The translations under genes and the position numbers were made by a program. The notes under the pieces are model-generated. The model saw only the letters and a list, made by a program, of their open reading frames with translations, was not told the DNA's origin and searched no databases. Shown here one piece after another: positions 11,972-23,210 of a stretch of DNA of 64,000 nt (position 1 is its first letter; every line of letters starts with the position of its first letter). The stretch comes from Solwaraspora sp. WMMA2056 (lineage in GTDB: Bacteria; Actinomycetota; Actinomycetes; Mycobacteriales; Micromonosporaceae), in contig NZ_CP128360.1 in the NCBI RefSeq assembly GCF_030345095.1, positions 1,116,001-1,180,000 of the forward strand. Direction: 5' to 3'.

Positions 11972-12199
11972 TCACTTGGGTTCGGCGACGAACACGCCGA
12001 CGCCGTGAGCGCTCTCGACCAGGCCCTCAGTGCGCAGGGCATGCATTGCGTAGCGGATCACCGAGTCCGAGATGTCGTGCTCGGCCTTGAGCTGGGCAGT
12101 TGACGGGAGCTTGTCGCCTGGCTGCAACTCGCCGCTCCTGATCTGAGCGCGAATGTGGTCGGCAAGCTTCTCCCACGCGCCCTCGTGCCGGCCGGGCAC
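11972..12199 (-). CDS. Solo GntR-type winged-helix regulator (copy 1)
   Basis: 75 residues from GTG 12199: only a GntR winged helix, with no effector domain. The core WEKLADHIRAQI, GDKLPSTAQLKAEH and ISDSVIRYAMHALRTEGL is almost the same as in the gene at 22992-23210 on the other strand. Small GntR proteins of this kind occur in integrative elements of actinobacteria. It follows the excisionase-like gene at a 27 bp gap and ends 3 bp from the stop of the MobA-like gene, which fits an inserted block. Confidence 0.8.
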   Translation of the reverse strand: MPGRHEGAWEKLADHIRAQIRSGELQPGDKLPSTAQLKAEHDISDSVIRYAMHALRTEGLVESAHGVGVFVAEPK

Positions 12200-12226
12200 A
12201 AGTAAGGATGTCGGTTTCCTGCCGGA

Positions 12227-12421
12227 TCAGTCCTCGCGCTGGCTCGGCCGGTTGGCAGCGATCCAGGCCGCCACCTCGTCGCGACTCCAAATGCGCATCC
12301 GGCCGTTGCCCACCACATCGATCGGCTCGGGGAATCCCGGCCGGCGGACGATCTCCACCGTCCTGGTTCGCGACACGCCGCCGAGCATCGTAGCGATGTC
12401 TGCCAGGGCGACGAGCTTCAC
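12227..12421 (-). CDS. Excisionase/AlpA-like helix-turn-helix protein
   Basis: 64 residues from GTG 12421. VALADIATMLGGVSRTRTVEIV, PGFPEPIDVVGNGRMRIW and SRDEVAAWIAANR form the MerR-like helix-turn-helix, wing and closing helix of AlpA/Xis proteins. Such proteins bend DNA at attachment sites or activate excision genes. No integrase is seen nearby. It is read together with the solo GntR gene. Confidence 0.75.
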   Translation of the reverse strand: MKLVALADIATMLGGVSRTRTVEIVRRPGFPEPIDVVGNGRMRIWSRDEVAAWIAANRPSQRED

Positions 12422-15229: not shown

Positions 15230-15397
15230 GCTGCCAGCCTCTCACGGCCGGCGACCGGCGGGCTACATCGGAAAGCGCAGGCCAGCGGCGGTACGGCGGG
15301 GTCGTCGTGACGATGGCGGCAATCCGACCGCCGCTGGGGCTAGCCGGCATGGTGGCTCACCTGGGTAGGGTGTGCGCACAGTGGGACTGAGTTGATC

Positions 15398-16516
15398 ATG
15401 GTGGGGGAGCAGGTGCCGGGGACAGCAGACCAGGTGAGCGGGGACCAGACGACTGGGGACCAACCAGCGGCGCCCGAGCCGCTCCTGCTCGACGAGCCGA
15501 GCACGGCCGACCTGCGGGAGAAGGTGACCCAGGCGTGGCGTGACTTCGCCGCCGCGCTCGCCGCGACGCTGCCGACCCTGCCGGCCGGCGGCCAGGTGGA
15601 GCTCACCCTCGACCCGACCGCGTCCGGCACCGGGGACGCGATCTACTCGGTGGGCGTACGGATCGGCCTGCAGGACCGGCTGAACGCCTCGGCGGTCAGC
15701 AACGCGACCCTGCCGGCGGAGTACCGGATGAACCGGGACGCGGTGGCCGAGCTGGTCGCGCTGGGCTGGTCCCCGCCGGGCGTGGTGGCCGGGTCGGGGG
15801 ACAACTTCGGGCTGACCACGACCACCGCCGACGTGAGCCGGCTGGCCTCGGTGATCACCCACACGCTGCGTCAGGTGTACGGCGCACCGCATCCGGCGTT
15901 CGTCGTCTACGCGGTGCACGACGCCAACGACGAGCCGATCGAGGTGGAGCCGCTGGGTACCGCCCGGCCGCAGTCGTCGATCGGTGACACCTTCGGGCTG
16001 CCCACCGACGACGATCTCGTCGGCACCGGCGACGACGTCGACCCGGCCGACGCGCTGCCACTCGACGACCAGGTCCGCACGGTCGTCGCGACGATGATGC
16101 GCAGTACGCCGGAGCACCTGCACGTCGACGCCGACGGCGACATCGGCATCCGGGCCGGCTCGGCGATGGTCTTCGTCCGGATCCGCGACAATCCGCCGCT
16201 GGTGGACGTCTTCTCGCCGGTACTGACCGAGGTGGAGCCGACCGAGCAGCTGTACGTGAAGCTCTCCGAGTTGACCAACCGGATGCCGATCGGGCGGCTG
16301 TACTGCACCAACGACACCGTCTGGGCGTCGATCCCGGTGTTCGGCCGCAACTTCCAGGCGACCCATCTGATGCTCGCCGTCCAGGTGATGACCGGGCTGG
16401 CCGACGAGCTGGACGACCGGCTGCATGGCGAGTTCGGCGGCAAGCGGTTCTTCGGCGACGGGGACAAGCCGTCGCGCGGCGACACCGGCGGTCACCGTAC
16501 CGGCATGTATCTCTGA
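15398..16516 (+). CDS. YbjN/TY-Chap-like protein with a C-terminal GMYL tail
   Basis: 372 residues from ATG 15398 (TTG 15392 also in frame). The N-terminal third (about 30-185) looks like the TY-Chap domain of actinobacteria (AWRDFAAALAATLPTLPAGGQVELTLD); the C-terminal part (about 215-350) is a YbjN-type module (EVEPTEQLYVKLSELTNRM, ACxV-like AVQVMTGLADELDD). These are predicted peptide-binding chaperones. The protein ends RTGMYL, close to the RTGQYL end of Bpa at 20102. Three copies of a 19-bp unit begin at the stop codon (16511-16566). Confidence 0.75.
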   Translation: MVGEQVPGTADQVSGDQTTGDQPAAPEPLLLDEPSTADLREKVTQAWRDFAAALAATLPTLPAGGQVELTLDPTASGTGDAIYSVGVRIGLQDRLNASAVSNATLPAEYRMNRDAVAELVALGWSPPGVVAGSGDNFGLTTTTADVSRLASVITHTLRQVYGAPHPAFVVYAVHDANDEPIEVEPLGTARPQSSIGDTFGLPTDDDLVGTGDDVDPADALPLDDQVRTVVATMMRSTPEHLHVDADGDIGIRAGSAMVFVRIRDNPPLVDVFSPVLTEVEPTEQLYVKLSELTNRMPIGRLYCTNDTVWASIPVFGRNFQATHLMLAVQVMTGLADELDDRLHGEFGGKRFFGDGDKPSRGDTGGHRTGMYL

Positions 16517-16566
16517 CGCCGGCGTGTGTCTCTGACGCCGGCCGGTGTCTCTGACGCCGGCCGGTT
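16511..16566. repeat. 19-bp tandem repeat spanning the stop codon of the TY-Chap-like gene
   Basis: CTCTGACGCCGGC occurs three times with a period of 19 bases, allowing one change. The first copy includes the last codon and the TGA stop. Confidence 0.7.
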
Positions 16567-16585
16567 GCCGCCGCTGGCGGACAGG

Positions 16586-17068
16586 TCAGGCCGGCTGGTC
16601 GGGGACGGCCACCGGCGGCGGGGCGTCGACCAGCCGGGACAGCACGATCATGCTGCGCGTGGAGGTGACGAACGGCTCGGCGCGCAGCCGTTCGAGGGCC
16701 TGTTCCAGGTGGGCGATGTCGGCGGCGCGCAGGTGCACCAGGGCGTCGGCCTGGCCGCTGACCGTGTAGGCGCCGACGACCTCCGGATGGCGGCGGGTGG
16801 CGGCGGCGAGCTGCGCCGGGGTGGTCCGTCCGGTGCAGTACAGCTCGACGAACGCCTCGGTGGTCCAGCCCACCGCCGCCGGGTCGACCACGGCGGTGAA
16901 ACCCCGGATCACGCCGGCCGCCCGGAGCCGGTCCACGCGGCGTTTGACCGCCGGCGCGGACAGCGACACCCGGGCCCCGATGTCGGCGTACGAGGAGCGG
17001 GCATCGGCCATCAGCGACGCAATGATCCGCTGGTCCACGGTGTCGATCTGCAACGTTCGACCCTTCAC
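16586..17068 (-). CDS. Lrp/AsnC-family transcriptional regulator
   Basis: 160 residues from GTG 17068 (TTG 17074 possible). The N-terminus IDTVDQRIIASLMADARSSYADIGARVSLSAPAVKRRVDRL is the Lrp helix-turn-helix; VVGAYTVSGQADALVHLRAADIAHLEQALERL is the RAM effector domain. It is divergent from the dimethylargininase gene, which it may control in response to an amino acid. GCAACGWTCG occurs twice in the shared region (17050-17059 and 17071-17080), 21 bp apart, a possible binding site. Confidence 0.88.
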   Translation of the reverse strand: MKGRTLQIDTVDQRIIASLMADARSSYADIGARVSLSAPAVKRRVDRLRAAGVIRGFTAVVDPAAVGWTTEAFVELYCTGRTTPAQLAAATRRHPEVVGAYTVSGQADALVHLRAADIAHLEQALERLRAEPFVTSTRSMIVLSRLVDAPPPVAVPDQPA

Positions 17069-17121
17069 GCGCAACGATCGTGGCTTCTTATTGTGTAACA
17101 GCGTACCTACTCTTGGTTCCC

Positions 17122-17952
17122 GTGACCGTCGCGCGTGCCGCCACCGACCCGTCGCGGGTCTACCTGATGTGCCCGCCCGAGCACTTCGGCGTCGAGTACG
17201 TGATCAATCCCTGGATGGACCCGCAGCAGCCGGTCGACGCCGAGCTTGCCCTCAAGCAGTGGCAGTGTCTGCGGGAGACGTTGACCGGGCTCGGCCACGA
17301 GGTCCACGTACTGCCGCCGCGACCCGGCCTGCCCGACATGGTGTACGCCGCCAACGGTGCGTTCACCGTCGACGGCACCGCGTACGGAGCCCGTTTCGCC
17401 CATCCCCAGCGGGCCGCCGAAGCGGGCGCACACCGCGACTTCTACCAGGACCTCGGCTGGCGCTACGTCCGACCGACCGAGACCAACGAGGGCGGAGGCG
17501 ACTTCGCCTACCTGCCGACGGCGTACGGCGGAACGATCCTCGCCGGCTACGGCTTCCGCACCGACCCCGACGCGCACCGACGGGTGCAGGAGACGCTCGG
17601 CCGCCCGGTGGTGTCGCTGCGGCTGGTCGACCCGCTCTTCTACCACCTGGACACCGCGCTGGCCGTCCTCGACGACGAGAACGTCGCCTACTACCCTGCG
17701 GCCTTCTCCCCCGCCTCCCAACGGGTGCTGCGCCAACTCTTCCCGGACGCCCTGCTGGCCAGCCGTGCCGACGCGCTCGCCTTCGGGCTGAACCTGGTCA
17801 GCGACGGCCGGCACGTGGTGCTCAACGACGCGGCGACCGCGATGACCGCGAAGCTGGCCGCCGCCGGCTACCAGCCGGTCCCGGTGGAGTTCACCGAGCT
17901 GCACAAGGGCGGCGGCAGCGTGAAATGCTGCGTCGCCGAGCTCCGCGGCTGA
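17122..17952 (+). CDS. Dimethylargininase/amidinotransferase-fold hydrolase (DDAH-like)
   Basis: 276 residues from GTG 17122. CPPEHFGVEYVINPWM opens the pentein fold. The catalytic set is visible: PTETNEGGGDFAYL, FYHLDTALAVL (active-site His) and KGGGSVKCCV (nucleophilic Cys near the C-terminus). DDAH converts methylarginines to citrulline. In actinobacteria this gene often sits beside an Lrp regulator and rocD; here only the Lrp gene is present. The neighbour arcA at 30687 has the same fold but is a different clade. Confidence 0.82.
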   Translation: MTVARAATDPSRVYLMCPPEHFGVEYVINPWMDPQQPVDAELALKQWQCLRETLTGLGHEVHVLPPRPGLPDMVYAANGAFTVDGTAYGARFAHPQRAAEAGAHRDFYQDLGWRYVRPTETNEGGGDFAYLPTAYGGTILAGYGFRTDPDAHRRVQETLGRPVVSLRLVDPLFYHLDTALAVLDDENVAYYPAAFSPASQRVLRQLFPDALLASRADALAFGLNLVSDGRHVVLNDAATAMTAKLAAAGYQPVPVEFTELHKGGGSVKCCVAELRG

Positions 17953-17967
17953 GCCGTCGCGCTGCCA

Positions 17968-18013
17968 CGACCCCGCTGCGGCCGGGTCGCCGACCCCGCT
18001 GCGGCCGGGTCGC
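17968..18013. repeat. 23-bp tandem duplication after the dimethylargininase gene
   Basis: A 23-bp unit starting CGACCCCGCTGCGG is present twice without change, directly after the stop at 17952. It lies between convergent genes. Confidence 0.75.
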
Positions 18014-18022
18014 CGGGCCGGC

Positions 18023-19228
18023 TCAGCCGAGAGTGGCCAGCTCGGTGATCAGGACGTTCGACAGCACCGGGCCGTCGCGGAGCACCTCGCGCAGGTACCA
18101 CTTCTGCTGCGGCGTACGTGGCTGGTTGAACTGCCACGGTCCGCGCGGGCTGTCGATCTGCCCGATCCGCCCGAGCGCCAGGTTCAGCTCCTGCGCCGTC
18201 ACCCCGGCGCCGGCGGTACGGATCGCCTTGTCCAGCACGTGCGCCGCGTCGTACGACGCCATCGCGTACGTCGTCGGCGACGCCCCGTACCGCTTGCGGT
18301 AGCCACTGGCGAACCGCAGGTTGGCCGAGTTGTCCAGGTCGGCGGAGTAGTTGAGCGCGGTGATGATCCCACTGGCCTCGTCGCCGAGCTGATCCACGAC
18401 GTTGCCCTCGGTCAGGAAGCCCGGTCCGTAGATCGGCCCGTCGTAGCCGGCGTCGCGCAACTGCCGGACGAACTCGACAGCGGCGGTCCCGGTGAAGAAG
18501 CAGTACACCGCCTCCGGATCCCGGTCGACGACCTCCTCGATCGGTTCGGAGAACGTGTCCCGGCCCGGGTTCGGCGTCGAGTCCGCCCAGATCACCGGAG
18601 CCGAGATCCGCTCGTCACCGGTGCCGAAACCCTCCCGGAAACCCTGCACCAGGTCCCGGCCGGCCGGCTGGTCGGCAGCGACGATCGCGACCTCGCCGTC
18701 GTCGCTGATCTCTCGGGCCAGGTACGCGCCGAGGGCCAGACCGGCCTCGTCGGCCACGTACGACGTGCGCCAGATGTAGACGACGCTCTGCAGGTTGCGT
18801 GGGGAGGCGTTGGACCCGATCAGCGGCACCCGGGCCTCCTCCACCCGGTCCCGGATGGCGAGCATCACCGCGGAGTTGGCCACCCCGGTCAACGCGAGCA
18901 CCTGCTGGCTCAGCAGCGACTCCACCGCCGCCAGCCCGGACTCTGCGGTCTCCCCCTCGTCGGCGATCACCAGGTCGACCGGCCGACCGCCGAAACGCCG
19001 ATCGTTGTTGTCCAGGAACAGCTGGAAGCCGTTGAGCATCTCGTCGCCGATCGGCTTGTAGCCGCCGGTCTGCGGGACGATGAGGCCGATCCGTACCGGA
19101 ACGTCGCTGACCAGGCCGTCATCGTCGGCCGAGTCGTCGCCCGTGCCGATGCTGCACGCGCTGGCCAGCCCGGTGGCGCCGAGCGCGGCCAGCAGCTTCA
19201 GAGCTTGCCGGCGGTCGATGTGGGGCAC
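18023..19228 (-). CDS. Branched-chain-amino-acid-type ABC substrate-binding lipoprotein
   Basis: 401 residues from GTG 19228; the much longer frame upstream is non-coding read-through. RRQALKLLAALGATGLASAC is a signal with a twin-arginine and a lipobox cysteine, so it is an exported lipoprotein. VRIGLIVPQTGGYKPIGDEMLNGFQLFLD and VALTGVANSAVMLAIRD-like stretches are typical of periplasmic binding fold type I (LivJ-like). No permease or ATPase gene is adjacent, so the ligand and the transporter are unknown. Confidence 0.85.
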   Translation of the reverse strand: MPHIDRRQALKLLAALGATGLASACSIGTGDDSADDDGLVSDVPVRIGLIVPQTGGYKPIGDEMLNGFQLFLDNNDRRFGGRPVDLVIADEGETAESGLAAVESLLSQQVLALTGVANSAVMLAIRDRVEEARVPLIGSNASPRNLQSVVYIWRTSYVADEAGLALGAYLAREISDDGEVAIVAADQPAGRDLVQGFREGFGTGDERISAPVIWADSTPNPGRDTFSEPIEEVVDRDPEAVYCFFTGTAAVEFVRQLRDAGYDGPIYGPGFLTEGNVVDQLGDEASGIITALNYSADLDNSANLRFASGYRKRYGASPTTYAMASYDAAHVLDKAIRTAGAGVTAQELNLALGRIGQIDSPRGPWQFNQPRTPQQKWYLREVLRDGPVLSNVLITELATLG

Positions 19229-19350
19229 GGGGGGTCCTCTCGCAAGGGGTGCGACGGGGCTGGTCGACGGCCCATCCGGCGTTCTACCCGCTCGGCCGGG
19301 CGGCGTCAATGCTATGTGACTGACCAGGCGGCGCGGCCGACAGCCGGGGC

Positions 19351-19411
19351 CCGGGGCGGACCCGGCCAAGGCTAGCCGGCTTCCCCGGGGCGGACCGGTC
19401 AAGGCTAGCCG
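19351..19411. repeat. 33-bp imperfect direct repeat upstream of bpa
   Basis: CCGGGGCGGACC followed by CAAGGCTAGCCG occurs at 19351-19378 and 19384-19411. The two copies lie in the 235-bp gap between the divergent lipoprotein and bpa genes. No promoter could be fixed with confidence. Confidence 0.6.
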
Positions 19412-19463
19412 AGGCGGCGGGATCGGGGGACCGCCGAGCGGGCGGTGCGGATGCTGCGTCAAG

Positions 19464-20102
19464 ATGGATGGCATGACCGATACACCAGAGGCCCCGGAAG
19501 TGACCGAAGAGTCCGCTGCGACCGGTGGCCGGCCCGGTGCGGTGGTGGTGGTCGGCCCGGACGGCCGACCGATCGGCACGGTCGGCACCGGTGCGGCCGG
19601 CGGTGCGGACGACGATGCCGCCGATCCGGACGACCCGTCGCGGCTGATCGAGCAGCCGGCCAAGGTGATGCGGATCGGCAGCATGATCAAGCAGCTGTTG
19701 GAGGAGGTTCGGGCCGCCCCGCTGGACGAGGCCAGTCGGCAACGGCTGCGTGAGATCCACCAGCGGTCGATCACCGAGCTGGAGGACGGGCTCGCCCCGG
19801 AGCTGCGCGAGGAGCTGGAGCGGATCTCCCTGCCGTTCGAGGACGGCGCGACGCCGAGCGAGGGTGAGCTGCGGGTCGCCCAGGCGCAGCTGGTCGGCTG
19901 GTTGGAAGGGCTGTTCCACGGCATCCAGGCGGCGCTGATGGCCCAGCAGATGGCGGCCCGGCTGCAGCTGGAGCAGATGCGTACCGGCAACCGGCCGGCG
20001 CTGCCGATGGGGCCGGGCGGGATGATCCCCGGCATGCCGGGTCAGCAGGGGCAGCCCGGGCAGCCCGGTGACGGTAGTTCCCGCACCGGCCAGTACCTCT
20101 GA
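19464..20102 (+). CDS. bpa: Bacterial proteasome activator Bpa (PafE)
   Basis: 212 residues from ATG 19464 (in-frame ATG 19473 possible). The central part SRLIEQPAKVMRIGSMIKQLLEEVR, the helices ELREELERISLPF and LVGWLEGLFHGIQAALMAQQ, and the C-terminal RTGQYL match Bpa. Bpa forms a dodecameric ring that docks to the 20S proteasome through its GQYL tail and opens the gate without ATP. The N-terminus is acidic and disordered; a P/G/Q-rich linker precedes the tail. The proteasome genes are not in this window. Confidence 0.93.
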   Translation: MDGMTDTPEAPEVTEESAATGGRPGAVVVVGPDGRPIGTVGTGAAGGADDDAADPDDPSRLIEQPAKVMRIGSMIKQLLEEVRAAPLDEASRQRLREIHQRSITELEDGLAPELREELERISLPFEDGATPSEGELRVAQAQLVGWLEGLFHGIQAALMAQQMAARLQLEQMRTGNRPALPMGPGGMIPGMPGQQGQPGQPGDGSSRTGQYL

Positions 20103-22728: not shown

Positions 22729-22882
22729 GGCCGCCGATCACCGCAGCCCTCCTCGGCAGTACGGCGACCAGGGCACATCTTCGGGGCCGGGACGCCCGAC
22801 GGCGTGACTCGCCGACCGCCCCGACCTGCCGCGTGGTGTCCTCTGCGGGTTGGAGACCAAGGAGGAAACCTCGCACCAGGAA

Positions 22883-22902
22883 CCTAAGCGAAGTAGTTCG
22901 CT
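22883..22902. promoter_or_regulatory. Palindrome upstream of the solo GntR gene
   Basis: TAAGCGAA, a 4-base spacer (GTAG), then TTCGCTTA: a perfect palindrome 90 bp before the GntR start at 22992. The surrounding 60 bp are poorer in G/C than the rest. It is a plausible operator for the GntR protein itself. Confidence 0.45.
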
Positions 22903-22991
22903 TAAGTCACCAGCACTAGTCCGCTGTACCGGCATCTTGCTGCCTGTACTGCGAACGTGTTCTCATGGTCGGCGGAGACCAAGGAGTGCCC

Positions 22992-23210
22992 ATGCCCGCC
23001 ACCAAGTGGGAGAAGCTTGCCGATCACATCCGCGCTCAGATCAAGAGCGGCGAACTACGACCCGGCGACAAGCTCCCGTCAACTGCCCAGCTCAAGGCTG
23101 AACACAAGATCTCGGATTCGGTGATCCGCTACGCAATGCACGCCCTGCGGACCGAGGGCCTGGTCGAGAGTGCCCACGGCGTCGGCGTGTTCGTGGCTGA
23201 ACCGAAGTAG
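22992..23210 (+). CDS. Solo GntR-type winged-helix regulator (copy 2)
   Basis: 72 residues from ATG 22992 with AAGGAG eight bases before it; the frame opens earlier at 22965 without such a site. It consists only of the GntR winged helix and matches the gene at 11972-12199 almost residue for residue, except at the very N-terminus. The DNA is also highly similar, so the copies arose by recent duplication or by arrival of the same element twice. It probably binds DNA as a dimer. It stands without an excisionase gene here. Confidence 0.82.
   Translation: MPATKWEKLADHIRAQIKSGELRPGDKLPSTAQLKAEHKISDSVIRYAMHALRTEGLVESAHGVGVFVAEPK

Follow-up and report, generated by a model that had tools for sequence, protein, structure and literature searches.

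A two-domain TY-Chap protein of Solwaraspora with a Bpa-like G-x-Y-L end: a putative ATP-independent partner of the actinobacterial 20S proteasome

The TY-Chap3/TY-Chap1 protein encoded at 15398..16516 (+, stop included) in the 64,000-nucleotide stretch of Solwaraspora sp. WMMA2056 DNA analysed here (the window) is 372 residues long and has the C-terminus RTGMYL. On balance we favour the reading that it represents a third family of GxYL-tailed 20S interactors, beside Mpa/ARC and Bpa, and that it is probably an ATP-independent adaptor or gate-opener; docking itself is inferred. What the computations show is a protein in which tandem chaperone-type domains are followed by a tether predicted to be disordered and by a G-x-Y-L end that is kept, encoded in genomes with 20S genes. 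As the ending is kept even in distant relatives, the protein is probably a new proteasome partner. Bpa itself was discovered by the same kind of evidence (PMC4254994).

The reading frame opens with an ATG at 15398 and closes with the stop at 16514-16516, the last residues being GGHRTGMYL; an alternative TTG start at 15392 is possible. The protein, all parts of which lie on the forward strand (+), begins with a predicted disordered N-terminus (residues 1-36, 15398..15505; pLDDT < 50 in an AlphaFold2 model). This is followed by a TY-Chap3 domain (residues 45-169, 15530..15904; PF22552, E 1.1e-26), an inter-domain linker that the model predicts to be disordered (residues 194-217, 15977..16048) and a TY-Chap1 domain (residues 222-353, 16061..16456; PF22551, E 5.3e-44). 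Membership was met for both families, with 94.2 bits for TY-Chap3 and 149.5 bits for TY-Chap1 against a curated cut-off of 27 in each case; an NCBIfam search gave no match. A variable pre-tail linker, also predicted to be disordered (residues 354-368, 16457..16501), leads to the GMYL tail (residues 369-372, 16502..16513), the proposed 20S α-ring docking motif, whose G, Y and L are identical across all full-length orthologues read. Disorder is predicted throughout 354-372 (pLDDT < 50), and the tail is thus modelled as free and exposed.

The AlphaFold2 model is of intermediate quality (mean pLDDT 77, pTM 0.49). Foldseek searches with it returned 2plg and 3kxy (both with E below 0.001), 1xkp (E 0.001) and, more weakly, 6vu7 and 4h5b. 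Within the limits of such a model, the fold is predicted to resemble that of type III secretion chaperones, with likeness also to YbjN/AmyR and DR1245. These proteins are mostly single-domain dimers, and no mention of a proteasome tail for any of them was found in the literature searched. The TY-Chap domain families are predicted peptide-binding chaperones, and the same families (TY-Chap1, 2 and 3) make up the TY-Chap proteins of ADP-ribose/NAD+ systems (PMC9503650). The tailed clade is set apart from other TY-Chap proteins by its GxYL end; the tail-less relatives read end otherwise, one having a Chap-C domain and another TPRs.

Two bacterial proteasome caps are well characterised, Mpa/ARC and Bpa, and Cpa is a further proteasome interactor without the tail motif (PMC12288473, PMC6017811). 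The 372-residue protein shares with Mpa/ARC the type of C-terminus, GQYL in the latter; however, Mpa/ARC is an AAA ATPase with OB domains, and neither AAA nor proteasomal OB domains were matched in the 372-residue protein by Pfam. The likeness to Bpa/PafE is greater, comprising a G-x-Y-L end after a flexible stretch, occurrence in 20S-bearing actinobacteria, the lack of an ATPase domain and a usual position as neighbour. The Bpa fold is nevertheless unrelated, a four-helix bundle assembled into a twelve-membered ring (PMC10415612), and the BPA domain (PF10759) was not matched in the 372-residue protein, which is therefore not a Bpa member and may merely work alike.

In the window Bpa (bacterial proteasome activator) is a protein of 212 residues encoded at 19464..20102 (+; PF10759, E 1.8e-75). 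It ends in SRTGQYL, of which the GQYL docking tail occupies 20088..20099 (+; function from PMC4254994 and PMC11953334). The Tyr and Leu of this tail contact R26 and K52 of the α-subunit (PMC11953334), and the glutamine is reported to be dispensable (PMC6017811, PMC12288473). In 7/7 genomes examined, that of the window included, PrcA carries an Arg and a Lys at a spacing of 26 residues, and from this spacing the pair is inferred to be equivalent to R26/K52. In the two genomes of the distant family f35 that have the tailed protein, Bpa ends in GPYL (L166 1369-1962 (+) and L170 1228-1977 (+)), with ARC keeping GQYL. An earlier note, made from the sequence alone, had claimed that the 372-residue protein and Bpa, 3.6 kb apart, end in RTGMYL and RTGQYL, and that the change from Q to M leaves the docking Tyr and Leu in place. 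The ends were confirmed from the ORFs and Pfam, and the exchange of Q for M matters little, given the reportedly dispensable glutamine and the GPYL end of the f35 Bpa. It is likely that the GxYL end of the 372-residue protein inserts into the pockets between PrcA subunits with Tyr and Leu contacts as in Bpa; this is an inference made without binding data.

The G-x-Y-L end was present in every full-length two-domain orthologue read, with x being M, Q or G. The orthologue sets (30 loci, 80 named loci and 73 order hits) overlap one another. A relatives search over 61 genomes gave matches in 34, comprising 31/37 genomes of the same family and 3 from other families of the order, one of these full-length (G048) and two partial (G045 and G047). 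Every one of the 30 loci returned (29 within the family, the window's own included, and one outside) keeps the tail, as GMYL in 27 and GQYL in 3; the GQYL-ended orthologues (L022, L024 and L025) form a single clade in the tree. Two full-length matches without a returned locus, G013 and G032, both end in GMYL. G369, Y371 and L372 are invariant in an alignment of 25 orthologues. The end is GMYL in 80/80 named loci, these being the best 80 of 200 relatives found; the closest named homologues are from Micromonospora, Actinoplanes, Phytohabitans, Plantactinospora, Asanoa and their kin. These genera belong to the Micromonosporaceae. A sample of the order (397 genomes) gave 73 full-length matches with 73/73 ending in GMYL, 70 of the tails having been read in that survey and those of G010, G012 and G048 earlier. 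Finally, in a sample of the class (394 genomes) the two matches from the distant family f35 end in VGGYL and IGGYL and share 36 and 33% identity, respectively, with the window protein; a third f35 genome had no match. In a 29-row tree all 17 tailed two-domain rows fall on one side of one branch (100/97).

The f35 orthologues (L151 8083-9552 (-) and L152 9030-10493 (-)) have about 150 residues before TY-Chap3, which appear alike by eye and matched no Pfam family.

The linker preceding the tail varies in length and sequence, the distance from FGG to the end being 21-29 residues in the 80 named loci, and the tail codons vary silently (4 codons for G, 2 for Y and 4 for L). Within the family the HRT that precedes GMYL is fairly well kept too (His in 94, Arg in 100 and Thr in 94 of 111), so selection is not confined to the four letters. 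The set of 111 was picked by G-[MQ]-YL ends, and its 111/111 is true by construction; the unconditional tail counts are those of the 30 loci, the 80 named loci, the f35 pair and the full-length hits of the order sample. Searches of the class, order and phylum scored at most 5 candidates per genome, and weak relatives may have been missed. Retention of the tail merely through close kinship was considered and rejected, given the silent codon variation, the variable linker and the persistence of the end at 33-36% identity.

Ends of this kind are rare elsewhere. When the 7.0-Mb genome was searched in full with DNA patterns, the one for GQYL ends gave two matches, Bpa and ARC/Mpa (1 for the reversed-pattern control), and the one for GMYL ends gave a single match, the 372-residue protein (control 0). 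These patterns left out ends with other x, and that for GQYL allowed only CTN leucine codons. The window and 80 related loci contain 787 closed gene-like ORFs of at least 200 residues, of which 126 end in G-x-Y-L: 81 in GMYL (the TY-Chap3/TY-Chap1 protein) and 45 in GQYL (Bpa). None of the remaining 661 gene-like ORFs of the window and these loci has such an end, and this 0/661 is the useful figure, as the loci were fetched for holding the tailed protein. A chance likeness of the tail was rejected on the genome-wide patterns and the 0/661 other ORFs.

Tail-like ends are also found on proteins with TY-Chap1 as their only TY-Chap domain, which were drawn from a sample of the phylum (396 genomes) and from the order sample. 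These are GAYL in G833, GGYL in G814, AGYI in G847 and GLYL in G045, each following a linker of its own. Eight further TY-Chap1-only rows of the tree have no tail (G962, G393, G271, G510, G460, G536, G575 and G064). On the 30-row TY-Chap1 tree, if AGYI is taken as a tail, no fewer than 4 changes of the tail label are required, so that the GxYL end was either gained several times or is ancestral and often lost. The chance of 3 strict tails among 12 TY-Chap1-only rows is 1.7e-9, a rough figure that ignores relatedness. A model of the single-domain protein of G814 predicts the same kind of fold with a disordered end at 144-171, and the likeness to type III secretion chaperones is clearer for this model. 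The window genome also encodes a TY-Chap1 paralogue (L162 9264-10310 (-); G000 around C1:4381686-4382174), which is 59% identical in the shared domain and has TPR repeats and no tail. Scanning 10 proteins at the loci of the single-domain relatives revealed no functional link: three were the TY-Chap1 proteins themselves, and the other seven comprised a glyoxalase, a rhodanese, a molybdopterin enzyme, an M23 peptidase, an NYN protein, a weak DUF7310 match and one protein without a match.

The genome from which the window comes has a row of genes for ARC (C-terminus NTGQYL), a Pup-ligase-family protein, Pup and two PF00227 proteins. Two PF00227 genes were found in all 37 tail-bearing genomes tested (27 + 3 + 7 from three genome sets; 36 with a strict GxYL and one with AGYI), and in 16/55 genomes of the phylum not chosen for the tailed protein. 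This association is weaker than it looks, since a PF00227 match was found in 54/55 genomes of the first of the three sets, tailed or not, and most tail-less TY-Chap genomes tested carry proteasome genes too. For the same reason the link between tail and proteasome is not exclusive. The earlier note had held that its proposal would fail if the tail varied freely among close homologues or was equally common without a proteasome. Neither is the case: G, Y and L are constant in all full-length orthologues read, beside a variable linker, and 37/37 stands against a background of 16/55. Among the genomes surveyed, no orthologue was seen in one without a proteasome, so the comparison includes no case in which the tail could have been lost along with it. 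The note's central claim, a new adapter or gate-opener, is supported as an inference, both binding and gate opening being inferred. Five genomes (G609, G298, G410, G271 and G874) have three PF00227 matches instead of two, possibly reflecting an extra proteasome-like gene.

That the tail serves something else, such as a degron or another receptor, and resembles those of Bpa and Mpa by accident is an unlikely alternative. It draws support from the proteasomes in genomes of tail-less relatives and from the commonness of loose HbYX-type ends, which about 0.72% of the proteins carry in bacteria presumed to be without a proteasome (PMC11475706). Against it, the G-x-Y-L end, its x unconstrained, appears more than once on the TY-Chap1 tree, in parts that are separate from each other; every tailed genome tested has 20S genes, and none of the 661 other ORFs in the loci examined has such an end. 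ProEnd lists 982 HbYX proteins in Actinobacteria (PMC11475706), among which the 372-residue protein may possibly be included.

The gene and bpa are 3.6 kb apart from stop to stop, with an intergenic gap of about 2.9 kb. In 65/80 named loci bpa lies downstream on the same strand, its ORF starting 188-5694 nt after the gene; of the 15/80 without bpa, 3 had a shortened flank. Of the family genomes that carry the tail, 24 lie outside the window's genus. The tailed gene and bpa are no more than 7 kb apart in 15 of them, share a contig at a greater distance in 4 and sit on separate contigs in 5; G012 and G015 have the two close together with a changed orientation. bpa was absent from 9/12 fetched stretches, including those of f35 and G048 (one being the paralogue's region), but f35 and G048 have it elsewhere in the genome. 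It is possible that the nearness is inherited and not functional.

In G025 (L159 5503-6115 (-)) two overlapping frames lie at the end of bpa, both with GQYL and 88 nt apart, which could reflect tail duplication, a frameshift or an error in the assembly. In the window itself, near-identical translations at about 12030-12250 (-) and 22850-23210 (+) suggest a duplicated stretch, which holds a short GntR-like helix-turn-helix protein (family assigned by eye).

In the mechanism proposed, the body would bind client peptides or partly unfolded proteins, client binding being inferred from the fold, and would pass them to the 20S core without ATP. The tail would tether the body to the α-ring and help to open the gate, and the tailed protein would be a competitor of Bpa and Mpa, which use the same pockets. 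These steps, the competition included, are inferred, and we lean only modestly towards them. A free GTGQYL hexapeptide at 200 µM opens the wild-type gate (PMC10415612); as free tail peptide at high concentration suffices, a chaperone held on such a leash could do two things at once, opening the gate and presenting a client. There is no sign of a ring or of several tails for the 372-residue protein, whereas Mpa and Bpa are rings.

The main rival, which remains possible, is that the protein is a 20S assembly chaperone or safety cap like Pba1-Pba2. Its tail would then dock on the α-rings of immature cores, delaying activators or stopping wrong ring pairing, and the protein would leave once the core is mature, carrying no clients. 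Pba1-Pba2 are likewise non-ATPase chaperones with C-terminal HbYX motifs for the α-ring pockets. They insert at only two α interfaces, so that few tails can suffice, keep the regulatory particle out and influence the gate (PMC9065996); a chaperone-type fold whose every chain bears a single tail would agree with this. However, bacterial cores have been assembled without chaperones, and none had been identified in bacteria (PMC7210456), and the gene is missing in several 20S-bearing relatives. The folds also differ: no PAC-type domain was matched in the 372-residue protein by Pfam, and Foldseek matched it best to type III secretion chaperones and their kin, with a resemblance to YbjN.

The tailed protein is missing in 6/37 family genomes, all six of which retain the 20S genes and Bpa (one of the six being only 69% complete). 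Nor does it occur in any of the 10 listed genomes of genus g12, which belongs to the same family and in which 20S genes are present in both genomes checked (G017 and G514) and Bpa in G017, and likewise from one genome of genus g4 in the order survey. The existence of family genomes with 20S and Bpa and without the tailed protein makes it an accessory, not a core part.

A second rival holds that the protein is a competitor or regulator of Bpa and Mpa, which fills the α-ring pockets and tunes cap use without delivering clients. The near-identical end, presumably directed at the same pockets, and the usual nearness of bpa speak for it, and what controls the association of the caps is not yet settled (PMC12288473). 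Yet a kept two-domain chaperone-type fold exceeds the needs of a plug, and the free peptide opens the gate instead of blocking it (PMC10415612); this reading is considered very unlikely.

The preferred reading of an ATP-independent adaptor or gate-opener can be extended, with less confidence. TY-Chap1 domains might be repeatedly recruited proteasome adaptors in Actinomycetota, a view for which the case falls slightly short. The same hesitation attaches to a GxYL-leashed, client-binding chaperone that would deliver to the 20S core without ring or ATP. It is possible, in addition, that TY-Chap1 adaptors in immune settings deliver proteins that are damaged or ADP-ribosylated to the proteasome.

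No description of a TY-Chap or YbjN protein at the proteasome was found in the open-access literature searched, nor any paper in which ‘YbjN’ occurs together with ‘proteasome’. The screen that led to Bpa began from M. tuberculosis genes (PMC4254994) and could miss families absent there, as the tailed protein may be. How cap association is regulated has been described as unknown (PMC12288473). If the reading is true, the actinobacterial proteasome would have a partner of a kind not met in the literature searched, either a ring-less, ATP-free adaptor or an assembly chaperone.
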